This document shows positions 1,430 through 36,569 of a DNA stretch of 36,569 nucleotides, in pieces. The notes beneath the pieces were generated by a model. That model ran no database searches, was not told where the DNA came from, and saw only the letters and a list, made by a program, of their open reading frames with translations. Each line of letters begins with the position of its first letter. Within the stretch, counting starts at the first letter, position 1. Source of the stretch: a virus; IMG/VR virus record IMGVR_UViG_3300035698_014920, positions 1 to 36,569 of that record, one strand, 5' to 3'. The position numbers and the translations under genes were made by a program.

Positions 1430-3046
1430 TTAGTCCGGTATGTCGTAATTGGCCGATATTTTTACATCATCGATCACAAAAGGCCCGTTTGTTTCGTAGT
1501 CGGGGCTGCACCCGATATGGACCTCCGATGCCGCCGAGGTCCAGGGTACATCTAGAAAATCATTGCCGTCGCTCTCACTGTCAACATGCAGATACCAGCG
1601 CCCTGTCAAAAAATCCCATTGGCACACGATCAGATGATATTGCCCTGCAATCCAGTCGCTTACTACCAGATATTCAAACGTCACCCCGGTAGCGTTTCCA
1701 TACTCAAAATAGATAGCGCCTGTCCTCTGGAACAGGCCGAGCACAGCGGTGCCGGGGCCATGTAAATGCATTATATAATGGCGTGGGGAGGGAGGTATGT
1801 CTGTTATGTCTACCAGCAATTTCACCCTTAGCGATAAATGGCCGACCGGGGTCATCTGATAGGGATATATCAGCAGGCCGGCAGCTCGTGATGTTGCCGT
1901 ATACGACGTGCTGCAACAGCATTTTTCGAGCTGGGCCGCATCTATCCATATATGGCCCGGGCTCGGCGTACCGTTTGCCCGCACAGCACAGCGGGCCTCG
2001 ACGGTGCCAGATGGGGCCACCAGGCCTTGGTATGCGTATCTTGCCCACTCAGTCGATAATGTGATGAGCAGGGAATCCTCCCTGATTAGGGTATCCCCTG
2101 ATGACAGCCAGAAAATAACGATTTTGAATCCGTCGGCCTGGGTAAGTGTGTCCGTTTTAAGCTCCGCCGCGAACGACACAACATCTGCAGGCGAAATTAA
2201 TATATCCGGCAAAACGACCCCTGCGTCGGACACTTCGTCTCCGTCCCACTCCACATCCAGAGAATAGTCTCCCTCATATACGCCCACTGTCTCGATGGCC
2301 AGCGTAGTATTCCCGATGGCGCTCCACGATGTTGTGTCCCCGCTTGCCAGACCAGGGTTGCATGCGCTCAGCAGGTTGGTCGTGGCAGGCTCCACATCGA
2401 CCCCACCCCCATCCCATCCGTCGTCACGCAGGACAGTGCCGATTGCGGCGGAAGGGTCTCTCGAAAGGAGGTCCTCCACCAGGGTACCATTGAATGTACA
2501 CCAGAACATATAGTCGGAATATGTATAATTACAGAGCGTGTGCGCCGGTTTGAGGCTGTTGAACAGCCCCTCCAGGCTCGGCTCGCCCGTCCACCAGGAG
2601 AGATGCTCGCCGCACGTGGACTCGCCTACGCGGAAATAATATACCTCTCCGAAATCGGCGACAAAAACCGTTACCAGCCACACCCATATCCCGTCAGCTC
2701 CATACGTGCCATCGTCGGCACCGAGCTCTTCGATGGCGATGATCATCCCCATTTCTGCGGCGAGCGCTATGAAATAGGGGATTGATAACCCGCCTTTAGA
2801 CCGTATCTTTTTAACCACGGAATCCCTGCGCTGCTGGAGGATAGCCGTGGAGTCTGGGGTGAGGCTGCAGACACGCTCCCAGAATAAGATCATCTCGTCA
2901 GTGGTATCGGGGAAACACTCCGCCAGGAGCTGCTCTGCGCGGGCCATTACTGCGTCGAGATGCGCTCCCTCGATCGTTGCATCACCATCATACACACCGT
3001 CGAGCTCCACCGGCATCAGTGCATTTAAAACGTCTTTATGTGACAT
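1430..3046 (-). CDS. gp48-like baseplate/tail protein fused to carbohydrate-binding-like domains
   Basis: This 538-aa protein overlaps the gp47 gene by 11 bp; the ATG at 3046 is chosen because the conserved N-terminus starts there. Residues 1 to about 177 fit the DUF2313/YmfQ (Mu gp48) family: an acidic helical start, then LTPDSTAILQQRRDSV and a later GTYGADGIW region. Mu gp48 is a protein of roughly that size alone. Here it continues into about 360 extra residues. Residues about 220-375 begin with a TTNLL-type motif and resemble a jelly-roll carbohydrate-binding module. Residues about 390-538 resemble a LamG/concanavalin-like sandwich ending in VIDDVKI. I infer a baseplate protein carrying receptor-binding domains next to the tail fibre gene. 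Confidence 0.75.
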   Translation of the reverse strand: MSHKDVLNALMPVELDGVYDGDATIEGAHLDAVMARAEQLLAECFPDTTDEMILFWERVCSLTPDSTAILQQRRDSVVKKIRSKGGLSIPYFIALAAEMGMIIAIEELGADDGTYGADGIWVWLVTVFVADFGEVYYFRVGESTCGEHLSWWTGEPSLEGLFNSLKPAHTLCNYTYSDYMFWCTFNGTLVEDLLSRDPSAAIGTVLRDDGWDGGGVDVEPATTNLLSACNPGLASGDTTSWSAIGNTTLAIETVGVYEGDYSLDVEWDGDEVSDAGVVLPDILISPADVVSFAAELKTDTLTQADGFKIVIFWLSSGDTLIREDSLLITLSTEWARYAYQGLVAPSGTVEARCAVRANGTPSPGHIWIDAAQLEKCCCSTSYTATSRAAGLLIYPYQMTPVGHLSLRVKLLVDITDIPPSPRHYIMHLHGPGTAVLGLFQRTGAIYFEYGNATGVTFEYLVVSDWIAGQYHLIVCQWDFLTGRWYLHVDSESDGNDFLDVPWTSAASEVHIGCSPDYETNGPFVIDDVKISANYDIPD

Positions 3047-4238
3047 TGATCGCCCCCACGCGGATGACTTCATTGTTGTCCGCTTCCAGGTCGGCAGCAG
3101 GCGTGCTGACCACGGCATTGACTGCTCCGTTATCCAGGGCTATCTGCTGCAGCTTGGATATAAAAAGGGTCTGTCCCGGGATGAGCGTGTCCATATACGC
3201 CTCGATGTCGTCTGATATTGCGGTGAGGTTCAGGTCTGTCCCGGTGGTGACCATCGTGACGGCCTGGGACACTACTGAGGGAGGCAATACCCGCACCGAG
3301 ATGTTGCCGGGGCCGACAGGCCGGACCGTATCTATATAATCCTTCGCCTGCCGGCACAGAGATGTGATCTCGTAATCCTGGGCAGTGTCCGTGAAAATAT
3401 CTGCATCGAGTGCCAGTTGAGTCTCGCTGTCAACGGCCGTGACGTTCGCCTCTTTGCTGGTTGTGGTGTTGGTAACCTTATCCCCTATGGTGACGCCGTC
3501 AGTATCGAATGCGCCGCCTGAATCCACGAGCTTGTCAGAGGTGGCCGAGGTGTTTGTGCCGGCATACGGGATGATAACTATGTAATCCTGGGCAGTGTCC
3601 GTGAAAATATCTGCATCGAGAGCCAGTTGAGTCTCGCTGTCAACGGCCGTGACGTTCGCCTCCACGCCACTTGTGATGTTCTGCACGATATCACCGGCAG
3701 CCACGCCATCGGTGTCGAAGGTGGCGCCTGTATCGACGAGTTTATCGGACGTGGCCGAGGTGTTTGTGCCGGTCAGATAATTATATGATGATGGTGTCTC
3801 CGATCCTGTGCCTGCCTCGTTTGCCTGGATTACGACATCCACCGTTCCGATCCCTCGCTCCAGGGGAAAGCACCAGGCAGCATATACATTATCGATCGAG
3901 AGTGCCCACTGCTCATAATCTGTCTTATTGCCTCCTGCAGGCGGGGTGCGGATGTAGGTCAGCACCCGGGCGAGCAGGGCCGCGTCCGTCTCACAGGAGG
4001 TGCGGGTGATCCCGTAGACCCAGGCATGATGATCCAGGGCAGCAGTGTCGGCCGTGTCCGGATAGATCTGGTCTGCAATATAGTCCTGATATTTATAAAG
4101 CCCCCACAGTGCTGATGCCATGCATGCGGCCTTTATGAACAGGAGCGAGCCCTGGGATATGTCTGCAGCAGGAAACTGGTTTTCATAGTCTGTCAGGATC
4201 CCGTTCAGCAGTGTGTCAAAGTCCTTTTGAAAACTCAT
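3036..4238 (-). CDS. baseplate J-like protein, Mu gp47 homologue
   Basis: This 400-aa protein belongs to the baseplate J/Mu gp47 family, which joins the wedge to the hub. Visible hallmarks are the N-terminal helix with DISQGS, the DHHAWVYGITR segment and the AALLARVLTYIRTPPAGGN region, followed by the C-terminal PPSVVSQAVTMV and IPGQTLFISKL stretches. It starts 4 bp inside the end of the gp46 gene. The unusual part lies at residues about 157-296: two copies of a 70-residue unit starting GTNTSATSDKLVD, inserted into the middle of the family fold. Without the insert the protein would be a more typical length. The core assignment is firm; the role of the insert is unknown. Confidence 0.88.
   Translation of the reverse strand: MSFQKDFDTLLNGILTDYENQFPAADISQGSLLFIKAACMASALWGLYKYQDYIADQIYPDTADTAALDHHAWVYGITRTSCETDAALLARVLTYIRTPPAGGNKTDYEQWALSIDNVYAAWCFPLERGIGTVDVVIQANEAGTGSETPSSYNYLTGTNTSATSDKLVDTGATFDTDGVAAGDIVQNITSGVEANVTAVDSETQLALDADIFTDTAQDYIVIIPYAGTNTSATSDKLVDSGGAFDTDGVTIGDKVTNTTTSKEANVTAVDSETQLALDADIFTDTAQDYEITSLCRQAKDYIDTVRPVGPGNISVRVLPPSVVSQAVTMVTTGTDLNLTAISDDIEAYMDTLIPGQTLFISKLQQIALDNGAVNAVVSTPAADLEADNNEVIRVGAINVT
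3351..3770 (-). repeat. tandem 210-bp in-frame duplication inside the gp47 gene
   Basis: Two adjacent units (3561-3770 and 3351-3560) each encode about 70 residues. Within them, 3372-3452 and 3582-3662 are identical over 81 bases except for one substitution. The beginnings of the units have diverged more, so the near-identical 3' parts suggest recent duplication or gene conversion. The period is a multiple of three and keeps the frame open. Confidence 0.9.
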
Positions 4239-16583: not shown

Positions 16584-16646
16584 AAAAAAAGCCGCCCAGG
16601 GCAAAAGGATCTTTGCCTTGGGCGGCCCGGTTTTTCCGATACCGCG
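16584..16646 (-). terminator. intrinsic terminator with conserved leader, copy 3
   Basis: Reading on the minus strand, a leader GCGGTATCGGAAAAACCGG is followed by GCCGCCCAAGGCAAAG, a short loop, its near-perfect complement and seven U residues (plus-strand A run 16584-16590). The leader is shared almost exactly with 24131-24188 and 27819-27880, but the stem here has a different sequence of the same shape. It separates the small zinc-type gene from the protease gene. Between 16647 and 16679 there is a further CCCGGG...CCCGGG hairpin and nothing else. Confidence 0.8.
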
Positions 16647-24109: not shown

Positions 24110-24130
24110 AACATCACCCCCTTTAAACGC

Positions 24131-24188
24131 AAAAAGGCCGGGCACTCAGGTGATCCCGAATGCCCGGCCCGGTTTTTCCGATACCGCG
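24131..24188 (-). terminator. intrinsic terminator with conserved leader, copy 2
   Basis: On the minus strand the leader GCGGTATCGGAAAAACCGG runs into a 9-bp perfect stem (GGCCGGGCA with TGCCCGGCC; plus-strand arms 24136-24144 and 24161-24169), with further pairing inside, then five U residues. It separates the virion-like cassette from the lysis genes. Positions 24189-24234 hold only a small CCCCG-GTGA-CGGGG hairpin. Confidence 0.85.
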
Positions 24189-27818: not shown

Positions 27819-27880
27819 AAAAAAAGGGCCGGACACTCAGGGATGATCCCAAGTGCCCGGCCCGGCTTTTCCGATACCGC
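27819..27880 (-). terminator. intrinsic terminator with conserved leader, copy 1
   Basis: On the minus strand GCGGTATCGGAAAAGCCGG precedes a 12-bp stem (plus-strand arms 27826-27837 and 27852-27863). The single mismatch in DNA terms becomes a G-U pair only in minus-strand RNA. Seven U residues follow. The G-U pair supports use in the minus direction. It separates the 92-aa gene from the virion-like cassette. Confidence 0.85.
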
Positions 27881-28197: not shown

Positions 28198-28231
28198 CCC
28201 AGTGCCTAGTGCCCAGTGCCTAGCGCCTAGC
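28198..28231. repeat. heptamer tandem array 1
   Basis: Four and a half units of a 7-base repeat (AGTGCCT with C/T variants) fill the space between the GemA stop and the ribosome-binding site of the next gene. Arrays with the same unit occur at 29581-29612 and 30071-30106. Confidence 0.85.
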
Positions 28232-28232
28232 T

Positions 28233-28766
28233 TCACCGGTATTTCTTCGGACAGTGCTCCTCAATATACGTCCGGATGTCCGGGTCTGCCCAGTATTTGA
28301 CCCACCAGTCCGCGCCATACTCCTTTTTCATCTGATGCTCGAACATCTTCTTGAGCCCCTCAATGACCCGATATGCCTCGTCCGCGGTCTTTACTTTTGC
28401 GATATGCATGCGCTTTCCCAGCCATGCCTGGTACCCGCCCTCGACCCGCCAGGTGATGAGCCCGGTGAGCGCCGCAATTTTTTCGGTTTCTTCGGTGCTG
28501 GGCAGGGCAATGATCGTGCTGTTTTGCCGGGGTGCTTTCCTGCGGAAATTGCGCGGGCGATCGCCCCCGGGCTTCCTGCGTATCTCAAAACCATAGCGCT
28601 GCACCAGCTCGTCTATCACGCGGCCCGCCTCGGGACCGGTGAGCTCCGCGCGCGACGTCTTGCCGGTGAGGTCTTTCAAAACAGATTTGAAATCATCGGC
28701 GTCCATGCCGAGCTGAGCCGGGGCGATGTGCAGGAGCCGGAGCTGGGCCTTTGAGATGTCAGGCAT
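28233..28766 (-). CDS. gemA: GemA-like regulator (DUF1018)
   Basis: This 177-aa protein matches the phage GemA family of Mu and relatives. Visible marks are SKAQLRLLHIAPAQLGMDADDFKSVLKDLTGKTSRAELTGPEAGRVIDELVQRYGFE at the start, GLITWRVEGGYQAWLGKRMHIAKV in the middle and a helical C-terminus with WADPDIRTYIEEH. Mu GemA modulates host gene expression and DNA relaxation. Its ATG overlaps the stop of a 32-aa frame (TAATG). Confidence 0.87.
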   Translation of the reverse strand: MPDISKAQLRLLHIAPAQLGMDADDFKSVLKDLTGKTSRAELTGPEAGRVIDELVQRYGFEIRRKPGGDRPRNFRRKAPRQNSTIIALPSTEETEKIAALTGLITWRVEGGYQAWLGKRMHIAKVKTADEAYRVIEGLKKMFEHQMKKEYGADWWVKYWADPDIRTYIEEHCPKKYR

Positions 28767-28864
28767 TACGACTCCGTTTGATTTTCCGTATCCTTGCGCG
28801 CACGATCGACGGACGTGCAGCAGATATTCAATTTCACGTAGTATTTTCTGACCTTATTCTTCAT
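28766..28864 (-). CDS. putative 32-aa small protein between PilZ and GemA genes
   Basis: A frame of 32 codons, MKNKVRKYYVKLNICC followed by TSVDRARKDTENQTES, starts 11 bp before the end of the PilZ gene and ends with TAATG shared with gemA. Both junctions fit translational coupling, and without it an 87-bp gap would remain. The ribosome-binding site (CGGGTAAAAG) is poor. It may be a real peptide, a coupling leader for gemA, or chance. Confidence 0.45.
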   Translation of the reverse strand: MKNKVRKYYVKLNICCTSVDRARKDTENQTES

Positions 28865-29240
28865 CTTTTACCCGCGCCCACGCCTTCAGAAACTCGTCCG
28901 AGGTTGTCGACACGATCCGCAGGCCCAGGCCCCAGCCTGCGGTCACGCGCACGATTGTTGTGAACAGGGAAAAATGCCGGTTGGATTTCTCGACGCCCAC
29001 CAGGATCACGCTCGTGCCTGCGGTCACGTGCACACGGCTGCATGCGGTCACGTGGGAGAGGAGGTCTGTCTCCACCAGCACGCCGGACAGGGACACGTTT
29101 TTGGCCGTGGCAAACGAATACCCTGCCCAGTTTTCCAGGCCAACCTTGATCATGAATTTGCCCGAGGCCTGCAGCCTGGGATACTCCCGGCGCTCCGGGG
29201 TGAGGCCGTATTTGCTGAGGTCCTGCTCCTGCCCGCTCAC
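28854..29240 (-). CDS. PilZ-domain protein, probable c-di-GMP receptor
   Basis: This 128-aa protein starts at a GTG (29240) overlapping the stop of the 40-aa membrane gene (GTGA), with AAGGGGGCGA upstream; a longer reading to 29459 would cross two better-supported genes. It carries both PilZ signature motifs: RREYPR (R-x3-R) near residue 17 and KNVSLSG (N-x-S-x2-G) near residue 50, followed by the strands expected of the barrel and a C-terminal helix (SDEFLKAWARV). PilZ proteins bind cyclic di-GMP and control motility, biofilm and surface traits. It is a stand-alone domain, so it must act through a partner, possibly its membrane neighbour. Confidence 0.85.
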   Translation of the reverse strand: MSGQEQDLSKYGLTPERREYPRLQASGKFMIKVGLENWAGYSFATAKNVSLSGVLVETDLLSHVTACSRVHVTAGTSVILVGVEKSNRHFSLFTTIVRVTAGWGLGLRIVSTTSDEFLKAWARVKDEE

Positions 29241-29359
29241 TCTTCGCCCCCTTCGAGCCTGTCCAGCCGCCGGGACCCGTCGAGCCTTGCCGCGCCATCG
29301 AAAAACAGCATCATAGGCACGAGCGAGAGAATCACGAGGAGACAAATAAACCCGTTCAT
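29237..29359 (-). CDS. 40-aa single-pass membrane protein
   Basis: The product starts MNGFICLLVILSLVPMMLFF, one membrane helix, followed by a charged tail (DGAARLDGSRRLDRLEGGEE). It has one of the strongest sites in the window (AAAAGGAGGGCGGC before ATG). The start overlaps the preceding stop (ATGA) and its own stop overlaps the PilZ start, so it is embedded in a coupled string. The topology and proximity suggest a membrane partner of the PilZ protein or a small toxin-like peptide; neither is shown. Confidence 0.65.
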   Translation of the reverse strand: MNGFICLLVILSLVPMMLFFDGAARLDGSRRLDRLEGGEE

Positions 29360-29556
29360 GCCGCCCTCCTTTTATGCCTGGCACGCGCATTGCGGGATGC
29401 GTGCAGCCGGTTCGGCCGGGATCTCCTCGGCGCGCCCTTGCCGCGGGGCCTGCCCGCATACCCGGGCCTGCCGGATGCCCTCGGCCCGGACAGCATTTTA
29501 ACGAGCGGCTCGGTCTCTATCATCCTCATCAAAGATTGTATAATTCCTAAATTCAT
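29356..29556 (-). CDS. 66-aa basic protein
   Basis: The product begins MNLGIIQSLMRMIETEPLVKML, a short amphipathic helix, then turns into a Gly/Arg/Pro-rich basic tail (RPGYAGRPRGKGAPRRSRP onward). GAGGAGGGA precedes the ATG and its stop overlaps the next start. The tail could bind nucleic acid. No family is recognised. Confidence 0.6.
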   Translation of the reverse strand: MNLGIIQSLMRMIETEPLVKMLSGPRASGRPGYAGRPRGKGAPRRSRPNRLHASRNARARHKRRAA

Positions 29557-29580: not shown

Positions 29581-29612
29581 CCTAGCGCCTAGTGCCCAGT
29601 GCCCAGCGCCTC
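29581..29612. repeat. heptamer tandem array 2
   Basis: Four units (CTAGCGC, CTAGTGC, CCAGTGC, CCAGCGC) followed by CTCATCTTCATGCCA. The last part is shared with array 3 except for one base and includes the stop codon of the gene to its right. It lies between the papain-like gene and the site of the 66-aa gene. Confidence 0.85.
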
Positions 29613-29616
29613 ATCT

Positions 29617-30057
29617 TCATGCCATCATCATGTATTCTGCCGAATCCAGGATCCTGCAAAAAATTGCCGGGTCCTTTACTACAAAAACATCATACTCAAA
29701 GGGCTCGCCGATTATTCCACGGTGATCTGTCGGGTGCGGATCATGGACAATTCTCCCGTTTCTCCATACCACTGCGTGGTTCTGTTCAGCCTTGACAGCC
29801 CCTGGTGATTCTCCTATGGCGACAACATAGGTGTCCCGCAGGAACTCTTTCGCGATAGTCCCCTCAATAAACTTTATAGGGAGGAACAATAATCCTTTGC
29901 GGGCACACCATGCCTGCAGATGTTCCAAATATTTTTCATGGCCATCGGCCATAAAGTTCGGTACTGATTCAATCGGCAACTCAAAGATTGAGGCAACGCA
30001 TGCCCTCATACAATCGCCTGTCTTAAAATTGGTGATAGTCTGATTTACTGGTTTCAC
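29617..30057 (-). CDS. papain-like Cys/His/Asp protein
   Basis: This 146-aa protein starts at GTG 30057 after AAAGGAG. It has TGDCMRACVASIFELP (Cys16 at the start of a helix), EQNHAVVWRNGRIVHDPHP (His94, Asp106) and ends with acidic segments. This Cys, His, Asp order, with His starting a strand followed by a turn and the Asp in HDPHP, is the layout of papain-fold peptidases and related phage proteins. It may cleave peptides or amide bonds, or be a regulatory relic. Heptamer arrays flank it on both sides. It is somewhat less GC-rich than its neighbours. Confidence 0.72.
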   Translation of the reverse strand: MKPVNQTITNFKTGDCMRACVASIFELPIESVPNFMADGHEKYLEHLQAWCARKGLLFLPIKFIEGTIAKEFLRDTYVVAIGESPGAVKAEQNHAVVWRNGRIVHDPHPTDHRGIIGEPFEYDVFVVKDPAIFCRILDSAEYMMMA

Positions 30058-30070
30058 AGTTTCTCCTTTC

Positions 30071-30106
30071 CCTAGCGCCTAGCGCCTAGCGCCCAGCGCC
30101 TCATCC
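30071..30106. repeat. heptamer tandem array 3
   Basis: Units CTAGCGC three times, then CCAGCGC and CTCATCCTCATGCCA, almost the same as the end of array 2. It fills the gap between the 218-aa gene and the papain-like gene. Confidence 0.85.
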
Positions 30107-30763
30107 TCATGCCACTTCCTTCAGCTGCTCCTGCAGAGCCTGCATGGCATCCCGGATCGCTGTGAGCCGCTCGCGCGACACGAACACGTCGCCGTAGCGC
30201 TTCTGGATGGCCCTGATCTCGGCCGCGTATTTGTCCGGGTCGAACCGGATCTTGTCCAGGTAGCGGGTGACCAGGCTCACCCATGCCGGGGTCGTGTTGG
30301 TCTCCGGGGTGAGACGCAGGCGCTCGAATGCCTGGGTGCCGGCCTCGTCGTCAAACGCAAAGGTGAGCTGCTCCACGATGTCGACAAACGCGGCCTTTTT
30401 CCCGCGGGACGCCTTGACCAGGCCGGTCATGGCGCGCTTGTGAAATGCTTCATAAAACTGCTCCACCTCGGATGCATCCCCGGGCATGTAATAGCCCCCG
30501 CCGAGGCCGGACATGCAGATGATCGGAATGTCGTGGTTGATGATCAGGTGATTGATCAGGCGACGCGTCTCGCGCTTTGCCTGCTCGGGGTCGCAATAGC
30601 AGCCGAACAGACTCAGGGCAAGTTCTGTGGCCGGGCATGCTCTCTCCCGGCCGACATGGGCTTTAAGTGCCTTTAAACATGCCTGCTCGTCCTCGGTCAG
30701 TTCCAGGGTGTGCGTGCCGTCGGGCAGGATCCCCAGCCAGTTTTCCTTTATTAATTTACCCAT
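30107..30763 (-). CDS. helix-rich, possibly DNA-binding protein of unknown function
   Basis: This 218-aa protein has a winged-helix-like first half: TEDEQACLKALKAHVGRERACPATELALSLFG, then RETRRLINHLIINHDIPIICMSGLGGGYYMPG, where the last glycine-rich hairpin resembles a wing. The second half is helical with Arg-rich stretches (YAAEIRAIQKRYGDVFVSRERLTAI). It lies among transposition accessory genes, and a role in regulation or replication is possible. The family is not recognised. Confidence 0.72.
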   Translation of the reverse strand: MGKLIKENWLGILPDGTHTLELTEDEQACLKALKAHVGRERACPATELALSLFGCYCDPEQAKRETRRLINHLIINHDIPIICMSGLGGGYYMPGDASEVEQFYEAFHKRAMTGLVKASRGKKAAFVDIVEQLTFAFDDEAGTQAFERLRLTPETNTTPAWVSLVTRYLDKIRFDPDKYAAEIRAIQKRYGDVFVSRERLTAIRDAMQALQEQLKEVA

Positions 30764-33038: not shown

Positions 33039-34223
33039 TCACGCCGCCAGGATGATCTCGGCGGTCACGGTCTGCTCGCCCATCTGCGCGGCAAGGTTCA
33101 TTGCCCGGGCCACGAGGTTGTTGACACTGAGCGGATAAGCCTTTTTCGGCAGGCGCTGCAGCACGGCATCGATGGCATCGTCGACAAAGATCTCAGCGTA
33201 ACGCCCGGCAGCGGCCCGGTCGAACTTGTGCTTGAGATAGTTTGCCGTCTCGGCACCCAGGTCGGTGATCTCGGCGATGGTGACGCGCCTGATCACCTCG
33301 CGCAGCTCCGGGTGCATGGACTCGTCCAGCAGGTATTTCAGCTCGGGCTGGCCGAGCAGGATGATGCCGAGCAGTTTCCGGTACCCGTCTTCAAGCTCGT
33401 GGATCTGCTTGAGGCACTTGATGGCCTTGACGCTCAGCAGGTGAGCCTCTTCGATGATGAGGACCTGGGTGAGCCCGGATGCTGCGCGGTTCTTGAGCAG
33501 GCGGTGTGCCTGGCGGGTTTTGGCTTCGAGCGATCGCCTGGGCGTCTCCTCAGAGATGTCCATGATGATCGCGTCGATAAGGCTCGATGGTGTGATCCGC
33601 GATTTGTCAATGATCACGGGAAAGATCACCTTGATGCCCTCGGCTGCCAGGCGGCCGGCAACGGCCTTGCGCATGATGCTCTTGCCGGATCCACACTCGC
33701 CATTGATGCCGGTAAACCCTGCGTTGCGGGCCGTCTCCATCATCATCTCGCGCAGGAAGATGTGCTCCTCCCCGAGATAGATGTCCTTTTCCTGCCCGAT
33801 CTCTCCGATAAACGGCGACCGGAAAAGTTTAAAGTGTTTCATTGCTGCATGTGTCAACATAATAACTCCCTCCTTTTGCTCTACGTTTTGCGGGTTGCCC
33901 GGTACCATCGCGGGCTGGGCCTGGGGTGCATGCACCTTGCGGCCGTGGCTCGTCGGGTAGCGCCGTCTGATCGGCGCGGGGCCGATCGAATCCCATATCG
34001 CGACCATAGCCAGGCCGTGTGCGTACAGCCATGCCATGCAGGCAGGCGTGCGCCGGATAAATGTCTCGATTGCCGCCACAAGGCGCGCATGTTCGGCAGG
34101 ATTACGGTGATGCAGTTCGTGGACAAAGGTGCGGGTGAACCGGTCGCGGTTGATCCCGGTGGCACCGGCAAGGTCGCGGCGGCTGATGCCTGCATCGATG
34201 AGCAGGTCACATATCCTCAGCAT
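33039..34223 (-). CDS. MuB-like AAA+ transposition target ATPase with N-terminal HTH
   Basis: This 394-aa protein has two parts. Residues 1 to about 65 form a helix-turn-helix (DLLIDAGISRRDLAGATGINRDRF) similar in place to the N-terminal domain of MuB. Residues from about 128 form an ExeA/MuB-type AAA+ ATPase: GECGSGKS (175-182, Walker A), VLIIEEAH (254-261, Walker B), LLGQPELKYLL (289-299, sensor region) and ELREVIRRV. MuB picks target DNA and stimulates transposase A. The ATG at 34223 overlaps the transposase stop. A second, strong site lies before the in-frame ATG at 33860 (residue 122), where most ExeA-type ATPases begin, so two forms may be made. Confidence 0.88.
   Translation of the reverse strand: MLRICDLLIDAGISRRDLAGATGINRDRFTRTFVHELHHRNPAEHARLVAAIETFIRRTPACMAWLYAHGLAMVAIWDSIGPAPIRRRYPTSHGRKVHAPQAQPAMVPGNPQNVEQKEGVIMLTHAAMKHFKLFRSPFIGEIGQEKDIYLGEEHIFLREMMMETARNAGFTGINGECGSGKSIMRKAVAGRLAAEGIKVIFPVIIDKSRITPSSLIDAIIMDISEETPRRSLEAKTRQAHRLLKNRAASGLTQVLIIEEAHLLSVKAIKCLKQIHELEDGYRKLLGIILLGQPELKYLLDESMHPELREVIRRVTIAEITDLGAETANYLKHKFDRAAAGRYAEIFVDDAIDAVLQRLPKKAYPLSVNNLVARAMNLAAQMGEQTVTAEIILAA
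33866..33874 (-). promoter_or_regulatory. internal ribosome-binding site within the MuB-like gene
   Basis: AGGAGGGAG on the minus strand, 5 bases before the in-frame ATG at 33860, lies inside the MuB-like reading frame between its HTH and ATPase parts. It is stronger than the site before the full-length start, which relies on overlap with the transposase stop. Confidence 0.65.
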
Positions 34224-35917
34224 GCAGCGCCCCCTGCGGCCGCGATCTTCGGCGGGGTAAAGGTGCCGGTGGCTGCGATCTCAGCCGCTATGCGATCGGC
34301 CTCGCCCTCGGGGATGCTCGCGCCATAGGTGCTCCTGATGGCCGTATTGAGCCCCAGGCTGATCTGACCGTGCTCTGCGATCAGGCGCTTGAATAGGGTG
34401 GTGACAGGGATGTCCTTCTGTGGCAGGTCCGCGCTTGTCAGTGCGTGCGGCACTCCCTTGCGCGGCATGAAATCGTGGGCGACACGCTCGGACAGGTTGC
34501 CCATGACCTGCAGGTCGGAAAACGGGATCGCGCCCTTTTTCTTCTCGTCTCCATACGCCAGATTGTCCGCGCGTTTTGCTGCGCGCTGGACCGGGGTCTC
34601 GGGTAGGGATTTAAACTCCTGGCCGATGATGGCGGCGTCTGTGGCAAAACCGGCCGCATCCTTTTCGATCGGCCCGGCAGCATATTCCTGGCCGTCATAG
34701 ATCACTGAGATCTCCGGCCAGGAAAACGGCCGCATGACCACGGAGACCTTTGCGCCAGGCATAAGGTTTTCGATGTGGCGGAGGCTGTACTCCTGCTTTT
34801 CATACCGGGCATTTCCCGGCCTGTATGATATGCTGTAGCGGCTTGATACGGTGCGCTCTTCGCTCGGGTGTGCAAACAGGTGGCGCAGCAGATCTCGGTC
34901 AGGCATCTCCCGAAGTTTGTCGCTGGGGATCCGCAGCCACATAGTGGTGCGGGCCTGGCCGTGGCGGGTATGTTTCTTTGTGGCATTATACCATACACAC
35001 CAGTCGAGTGCGCATTCGTTGAGCTCCTCGATGCTGCTCGCCGGGTTGAATTTCAGACCGGACTCGAACCAGCGCTCGACCAGGTCCTGCGCCTTCTCGA
35101 CGCTGCCGTCACGCGTCGGTGTGCCGGGCAGGCCCGCGGGCACATCCACATCCAGGTGGCGCAGCAGGGCAACCACCGGCTTGCTCTTGTTCGCGGCACC
35201 CGGGTCCATCATGAGGATCTCAGGCACGCCGCGGACGGGAAATTTCTCGTGTTTTGGTTCCCAGGCGCTGGCCAGGAAGTCGAAGAGGTCCTCGGCACGC
35301 TCGCCTGCGCTCTGGTAGTATTTCACATAGATGGCGCCGCTGTAGTGGTCGGTGAGGACCCAGCGGATGATCTTCCTTTTAATTTTGGCATAGTTTTCAA
35401 ACTTGTTTTTATAAAAGAGTTCGCGCGGCAGGATCTGCAGGGGCGAGCCCGGCCGCAGGTAATACTGGATACAGATCGATGCGTCGACCTGGTGCACGTG
35501 GTTGGGGTAAAGGCTCCGCATAGGGATATGCGGATCTGTGGCGAGCTGGCAGGTCTTGCTCATCTTGCGCTCGCGCAGCAGGGTCTGCAGACGCGATGCC
35601 GTGATCAATCCTCGCTCTATGATGCCGTTGTCCTCGGCAATGATCAGGGCCTTTTCCACCGGCATGATCGGGCCTTTGCGCTCCCGGCCGGAGACATGAA
35701 TCAGGGCAAATATGCAGTCAATCTGCTGTTCGGTCAGCACACTGCGGCCGGCATCAGCGCGCACCTTGCGGCCCGGAGCATAGCCGTGCCGCTTCGCGAT
35801 GCGGTAGAGCGTCTGGCGTGATTTGCCGGTGAGCGCCATGTATTCGTCCATGACGAGGTCTTTCTCGCCGTTAACGGCCTGTTTCAGCCGGGATACCATG
35901 TCGTCCTGCCAGGCCAT
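34217..35917 (-). CDS. Mu-type DDE transposase A
   Basis: This 566-aa protein is read from the ATG at 35917 (MAWQDDMVSRLKQAV), four bases after the preceding stop with AAGGGGTGA upstream; a longer reading would run into that gene. Residues about 20-45 form a HTH (DEYMALTGKSRQTLYRIAKRHG). The rve catalytic core has HQVDAS (Asp145), LMMDPG (Asp238) and SVEKAQ (Glu274), i.e. DD-x35-E. Residues about 385-470 form the Mu-transposase C-terminal barrel (ISYRPGNARYEKQEYSL; GAKVSVVMRPFSWPEISVIYDG) and the last about 90 residues probably contact MuB. It performs replicative transposition of the phage genome. Confidence 0.93.
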   Translation of the reverse strand: MAWQDDMVSRLKQAVNGEKDLVMDEYMALTGKSRQTLYRIAKRHGYAPGRKVRADAGRSVLTEQQIDCIFALIHVSGRERKGPIMPVEKALIIAEDNGIIERGLITASRLQTLLRERKMSKTCQLATDPHIPMRSLYPNHVHQVDASICIQYYLRPGSPLQILPRELFYKNKFENYAKIKRKIIRWVLTDHYSGAIYVKYYQSAGERAEDLFDFLASAWEPKHEKFPVRGVPEILMMDPGAANKSKPVVALLRHLDVDVPAGLPGTPTRDGSVEKAQDLVERWFESGLKFNPASSIEELNECALDWCVWYNATKKHTRHGQARTTMWLRIPSDKLREMPDRDLLRHLFAHPSEERTVSSRYSISYRPGNARYEKQEYSLRHIENLMPGAKVSVVMRPFSWPEISVIYDGQEYAAGPIEKDAAGFATDAAIIGQEFKSLPETPVQRAAKRADNLAYGDEKKKGAIPFSDLQVMGNLSERVAHDFMPRKGVPHALTSADLPQKDIPVTTLFKRLIAEHGQISLGLNTAIRSTYGASIPEGEADRIAAEIAATGTFTPPKIAAAGGAAC

Positions 35918-35921
35918 TATG

Positions 35922-36569
35922 TCACCCCTTGTCACCGATATCGCCGATGTCGAGCTTGAAATCATCATCATAGGATGCAGAGCCTTTCGGCGGCGTCCAG
36001 CCATTGTCCATCTCCGGGGTGCCATAGTGCTCTATCGCCGTATCGTGCAGGGCCGTTGCCAGGCGGCGGATATATCCGACGGTCTCCAGGTAGGCGGCCA
36101 TCATGTGCGGAGTGGCGTCGATCAGGTCGATCGCGTCCGGCTCGATGCGGGCGCTCATACCCGTGAACTGCAGTTTTATGGCCTCCAGCTGTTTGAGGAA
36201 TTCTTCTTCGCCCGGGGCAAACCCGCGCGCCTTGATCTCTCTCTCGTGGCGGGCAAGGTCGCGTTCCTGTTTGATGATGACCCGTTCCTTTTCTTTCATG
36301 ATGCGGTCTTTTGCCTTGAGTGTTAAGCCCTGTTCGGTGATGGTTTTGTCGCGGGATTCAAGCAGTGTCTCGATCGCTGCTTCGAGATCCTCGACATGAT
36401 CCGGGTCGAGAGGGATCTTTTCCTCGCCGATGGTCACGCCCTCGGCCTCGATGAGCAGGTCGCCGTCTGCGGCCGCGTAGCGGAGCTTTCTCAGCTCGCG
36501 GTAGCCGACCTTAAAACTGGCGACCGTCGCCAGAAAATCTTGCCCAAAATTTTCAAGGTTTTGAAGATC
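35922..36569 (-). CDS. coiled-coil early protein, 5' end outside the window
   Basis: The frame is open from the stop at 35922 to the window edge (216 codons without a stop), so the start lies beyond. The first visible residues (DLQNLENFGQDFLATVASFK) and the middle (LEAAIETLLESRDK; RIMKEKERVIIKQERDLARHE) are helical and coiled-coil-like, followed by a helical domain (MMAAYLETVGYIRRLATALHDTAIE) and an acidic end. A GTG at 36437 exists in frame but the coding character continues upstream. It directly precedes transposase A. No family is recognised. Confidence 0.75.
   Translation of the reverse strand, partial: DLQNLENFGQDFLATVASFKVGYRELRKLRYAAADGDLLIEAEGVTIGEEKIPLDPDHVEDLEAAIETLLESRDKTITEQGLTLKAKDRIMKEKERVIIKQERDLARHEREIKARGFAPGEEEFLKQLEAIKLQFTGMSARIEPDAIDLIDATPHMMAAYLETVGYIRRLATALHDTAIEHYGTPEMDNGWTPPKGSASYDDDFKLDIGDIGDKG

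Follow-up and report, generated by a model that had tools for sequence, protein, structure and literature searches.

The window analysed here is the complete IMG/VR record IMGVR_UViG_3300035698_014920 (36,569 bases), whose genes lie on the minus strand. Read from the high-coordinate end, they run from a transposase and a transposition ATPase through a series of early genes to GemA, an amidase, a terminase, a Mu-type portal, a Mu F-like protein, and the sheath and tail genes. The portal matched Portal_Mu with 338.8 bits, and the Mu F-like protein, the tail sheath, GemA and the AAA_22 transposition ATPase were also matched. With a Mu-type transposase, a transposition ATPase, a portal and an F-like protein all present, the element is, on its gene content, a contractile-tailed Mu-like phage. 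The record stops about 540 bp past the start of the transposase gene, and the left end of the phage is missing. A 210-bp near-tandem duplication (3372-3772) within a gene of 400 aa (3036-4238) gives rise to two similar protein repeats. The features that bear on this study are the following.

34217-36025, minus strand: transposase (phrog_310, 2e-63)
33039-34223, minus strand: transposition ATPase (AAA_22; profile matches)
30107-30763, minus strand: conserved early gene of 218 aa (phrog_2113; codon z 10.9; homologues in relatives), at the upstream edge of a variable slot
29617-30057, minus strand: accessory gene of 146 aa (phrog_5845, E 1.3e-27), with low GC3, flanked by two heptamer arrays
29356-29556, minus strand: strongly basic ORF of 66 aa, of doubtful coding status
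29237-29359, minus strand: ORF of 40 aa, a predicted single-pass membrane peptide
28854-29240, minus strand: probable divergent stand-alone PilZ-domain protein of 128 aa
28766-28864, minus strand: ORF of 32 aa, of doubtful coding status
28233-28766, minus strand: GemA homologue of 177 aa, kept in relatives
27826-27863, minus strand: intrinsic terminator (16-pair stem and T run; fold z -5.7)

The nearest named genomes, as judged by the transposase, are MAGs of Deltaproteobacteria/Desulfobacteraceae (48-51% identity), while relatives in IMG/VR share 32-49% identity with it. The nearest relatives with the same gene order (L093-L095 and L186-L188, which are the same three contigs retrieved twice) have identities of 70-78% for TerL, 46-51% for MuB and 50% for GemA. 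As far as such sequence likeness can tell, the host probably belongs to the Desulfobacterota.

A preliminary description had presented positions 28,766 to 29,556 as a coupled operon of five genes, from the basic protein to GemA. The five ORFs and their four junctions are exactly as it gave them: the 66-aa and 40-aa ORFs overlap by 4 bp (ATGA), the 40-aa ORF and the PilZ gene by 4 bp (GTGA, the GTG being the PilZ start codon), the PilZ gene and the 32-aa ORF by 11 bp, and the 32-aa ORF and the GemA gene by 1 bp (TAATG). The interval itself contains only the first four ORFs; it stops at the start codon of GemA, which lies outside it. Moreover, the five ORFs are not equally well supported as genes. 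Scoring by codon statistics, with 12 long genes from the window as the training set and z computed against shuffles, gave coding support for the 40-aa ORF (3.6), the PilZ gene (7.5) and GemA (7.8); the 66-aa ORF is unsupported (0.1) and the 32-aa ORF weakly supported (1.5), neither being clearly above chance. Ribosome sites read from the sequence add to this picture: AAGGAGG lies 5 bases ahead of the ATG of the 40-aa ORF, a G-rich site precedes the PilZ GTG, and the GGAG of GemA sits within the 32-aa frame, which has no clear ribosome site ahead of its own ATG. A GAGGAGG precedes the ATG of the 66-aa ORF, which may thus still be a gene despite its codon score. We take the 40-aa ORF, the PilZ gene and GemA as genes and regard the 66-aa and 32-aa frames as doubtful. 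The reading of the 40-aa product as a single-pass membrane peptide holds as a prediction, with one hydrophobic segment at residues 4-20 (hydropathy 2.86 over 17 residues). The coupling, on the other hand, loses its special character: in a plausible gene set, start-stop overlaps were found at 15 of the 43 junctions outside the cassette, the tail genes holding a run of 11, 11 and 4 bp. Because overlaps are so common across this phage, those of the cassette are not distinctive.

PilZ domains are bacterial receptors for c-di-GMP, the main bacterial lifestyle signal, and stand-alone members like PA4608/MapZ bind it first and a partner protein afterwards. The match of the 128-aa protein to the Pfam family PF07238 is marginal (23.2 bits, E 9e-5), as it lies 0.7 bits above the cut-off of 22.5. 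Such a score, together with the lack of any PilZ match in an NCBIfam search, leaves room for an unrelated protein that resembles a PilZ domain by chance; BLAST matches to a carboxyltransferase are just as weak, and the likeness to propionyl-CoA carboxylase was taken as chance. In PHROGs, the protein weakly matches an unnamed family only. Against a chance match, an independent profile, based on 18 PilZ domains from four Desulfobacterota genomes and run with filters off, scored the protein at 12.8 bits, whereas the best of 2000 shuffles reached 5.7; hhalign aligned residues 15-121 (P 1.7e-5). Furthermore, the two ligand motifs, R18xxxR22 and N48xSxxG53, align with the positions of the PA4608-type family; R18, R22, S50 and G53 are all in register and invariant in the alignment with host PilZ proteins, and a profile of that alignment finds solved PilZ structures including PA4608. 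As to the six-stranded beta-barrel typical of the family, a single-sequence structure prediction of the protein gave an uninformative pLDDT of 35. Altogether, these comparisons point with high confidence to a divergent PilZ member that carries both ligand motifs, as the preliminary description had it, and leave a non-PilZ protein only a small chance.

The PilZ cassette sits towards the end of the early run, at a variable accessory position flanked by a conserved early gene and GemA. Homologues of this early gene (phrog_2113) also lie upstream of GemA in L002, L069-L071, L073, L078 and L093-L095. At the other edge, GemA is well identified (PF06252, 45 bits against a cut-off of 27), and it follows the transposition genes in the same order as in relatives. 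What lies between the two varies: the slot is empty in L002, where the conserved early gene is directly upstream of GemA, and holds a DUF2786/DUF7168 protein in L032 (and, by eye, in L022 and L080), a DUF3164 protein in L114, cysteine-motif proteins in L100-L113 and a 102-aa protein in L094, with other contents elsewhere. In several phages devoid of PilZ, small membrane ORFs (43-69 aa) lie near GemA, none of them similar to the 40-aa peptide. In the window, the 146-aa product of the slot shows, by eye, a Cys/His pattern resembling that of papain-like enzymes. The intrinsic terminator (27863-27826), a strong one, sits behind the gene next after GemA and is likely the end of the early transcript. 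The terminator region (27826-27880) shares sequence with a hairpin at about 24125-24187; GCGGTATCGGAAAA precedes both the terminator and this hairpin (~24.13 kb) on the minus strand and recurs at 16632-16645 (~16.64 kb), perhaps marking a repeated operon-end element.

Three tandem arrays of the heptamer GCCYAGY (28201-28230, 29587-29610 and 30071-30101) are confined to the variable slot, where they bracket the 146-aa gene as well as the segment that runs from the 66-aa ORF to GemA. In one Desulfobacterota genome (G164), similar arrays are scattered between genes, with 10 matches (L138, L142, L144-L149), and none was found in the transposase-relative loci examined from Deltaproteobacteria/Desulfobacteraceae MAGs. 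A reversed control pattern also matched a few other genomes, so that such arrays appear to be a common repeat type. It is possible that the GCCYAGY arrays are the borders of DNA exchanged with the host, and a clue to its identity.

We then asked how widely the PilZ gene is shared. No close relative of the protein was found in IMG/VR, GTDB genomes or phage records. Among 395 Desulfobacterota genomes, and 198 genomes related to one of these, there were just weak chromosomal PilZ or chance matches, the best BLAST relative in the 395 genomes being a 108-aa chromosomal PilZ protein (L058, 28%) in a non-phage neighbourhood. No PilZ above the Pfam cut-off was detected in 29 transposase relatives or in 50 GemA-bearing records. 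The local PilZ profile likewise found none among the ORFs of the transposase and GemA loci, 18 GemA loci from Desulfobacterota genomes and 46 terminase relatives, although some of the loci searched are fragments stopping short of the slot and an equally divergent PilZ could be missed. With default filters this local profile missed the window protein itself, and the final negatives hence come from filters-off runs; a weak profile match in L022 was rejected on inspection. The pattern DIS-x-GG-x-F-V gave four matches in viral contigs, one of which is a true PilZ in a context not shared with the window. This clear PilZ-domain protein (L133:2094-2528, 23.4 bits) is encoded on a 119-kb IMG/VR contig that may be a large phage or host sequence; homologues of window proteins are absent nearby. 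The PilZ cargo was thus found in a single record, and no phage-encoded PilZ-domain protein of this kind was found in the open-access literature. What the evidence shows is one rare cargo gene and not a recognisable system.

As to its role, we tentatively propose that a host-type stand-alone PilZ adaptor has become a rare cargo of the early region, where it would bind c-di-GMP and act on surface functions of the host. A host-type origin is suggested by the best BLAST relative, a chromosomal PilZ in a non-phage neighbourhood. The adaptor would have been captured from such a source into the variable early slot and might be expressed during early infection or in the lysogen. It could then bind c-di-GMP through its R18xxxR22 and N48xSxxG53 motifs and, like PA4608/MapZ, contact a host protein, most likely one governing pili, flagella or chemotaxis. 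The shifted surface state of the host could in turn change adsorption or superinfection. The 40-aa peptide would be a small membrane protein, whether or not it contacts the PilZ protein. A host-modulating role had been anticipated in the preliminary description, and the place of the gene in a variable early region fits it.

The main rival to this reading is that of a neutral passenger: the PilZ gene would have come in with host DNA by recombination, be of no use to the phage and experience little selection. Its presence in one phage only, the chromosomal location of its nearest relative, and the bracketing of the segment by heptamer arrays of the kind found between genes of one Desulfobacterota genome are all consistent with such a history. 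The state of the gene argues the other way. Indeed, its frame, its codon signal and the two motifs have all stayed intact, and its GC3 (0.80) equals that of the phage core genes, which suggests that the gene is being kept up. We therefore consider a passenger somewhat unlikely, while giving it more weight than the readings that follow.

The protein could also act as a c-di-GMP sponge or a second-messenger counter-defence, lowering free c-di-GMP and blunting biofilm signalling or an immunity that uses this messenger. The early position, the intact ligand motifs and the small stand-alone domain would suit such a function. A sponge would, however, require high copy and affinity, and we know of no sponge with a PilZ fold. 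Moreover, PADLOC models match neither the PilZ protein nor its neighbours, a weak argument since the library mainly covers defence rather than counter-defence. We regard this function as improbable.

The preliminary description had suggested a link between the PilZ protein, a membrane partner and GemA, in which a complex of the 40-aa peptide and the PilZ protein would form a membrane-tethered switch that reads the lifestyle state of the host. The two ORFs overlap by 4 bp and each has a coding signal, and a hydrophobic segment is clear in the 40-aa ORF; the sequence offers adjacency as the sole pointer to a complex. By contrast, the pair was absent from every relative searched, and neither the 40-aa frame nor the pair proved to be conserved, a test which the description had itself proposed. 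The unrelated membrane ORFs near GemA in phages without PilZ and the frequency of overlaps in this genome also speak against a dedicated partnership, and the tie to GemA reduces to position, as many different genes lie upstream of GemA among the relatives. There is little to recommend the tethered complex, and its fuller form, a c-di-GMP-gated switch in which the 40-aa peptide keeps an early PilZ adaptor at the membrane to read the motile/sessile state of the host and tune adsorption, superinfection or the lysis-lysogeny choice, is slightly less probable still.

The stand-alone PilZ adaptor that we favour can be compared with several known systems. With the single-domain receptors of the PA4608/MapZ type (PF07238), it shares a stand-alone domain of about 125 aa, an ERRxxxR near the N terminus and a (D/N)xSxxG some 28 residues further on. 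It differs from them in being encoded by a phage, in its low identity to the aligned host PilZ proteins (10-24%) and in about nine extra residues ahead of the last strands, and its c-di-GMP binding is putative, from the motifs. It is also distinct from phrog_22946, a family with no function label that chromosomal PilZ proteins match (down to 2.5e-10) and that probably represents PilZ proteins of phages or prophages; the window protein does not match it.

The location of the gene recalls the plastic regions of Pseudomonas Mu-like phages, which carry small accessory genes (PMC4378225). Both have short unconserved genes at fixed sites between core genes, whereas here the host group differs and a signalling domain can be recognised in one accessory gene. 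In these phages, the slot ahead of GemA can be seen as a place to seek host-control genes. Finally, a role in surface functions, the most likely one, is proposed by analogy with Tip, Aqs1 and Zip of Pseudomonas Mu-like phages, an analogy of place and role only; these proteins target PilB or PilZ, with effects on pili and superinfection (PMC11656802). Of the three, Tip and Zip are encoded by phages D3112 and JBD26, and Zip works through the host PilZ (PMC11656802). Like the window protein, Tip, Aqs1 and Zip of D3112, JBD26 and relatives are small accessory proteins of Mu-like phages (PMC11656802), and a surface role is proposed here too. While the three are small, unrelated peptides binding PilB or PilZ without having a PilZ domain, the window protein appears to be a PilZ domain itself, with its ligand motifs. 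Should it bind c-di-GMP and alter the host, it would represent a receptor for the main bacterial lifestyle signal that is carried by a phage, unlike the unrelated small proteins through which known Mu-like phages act on pili.
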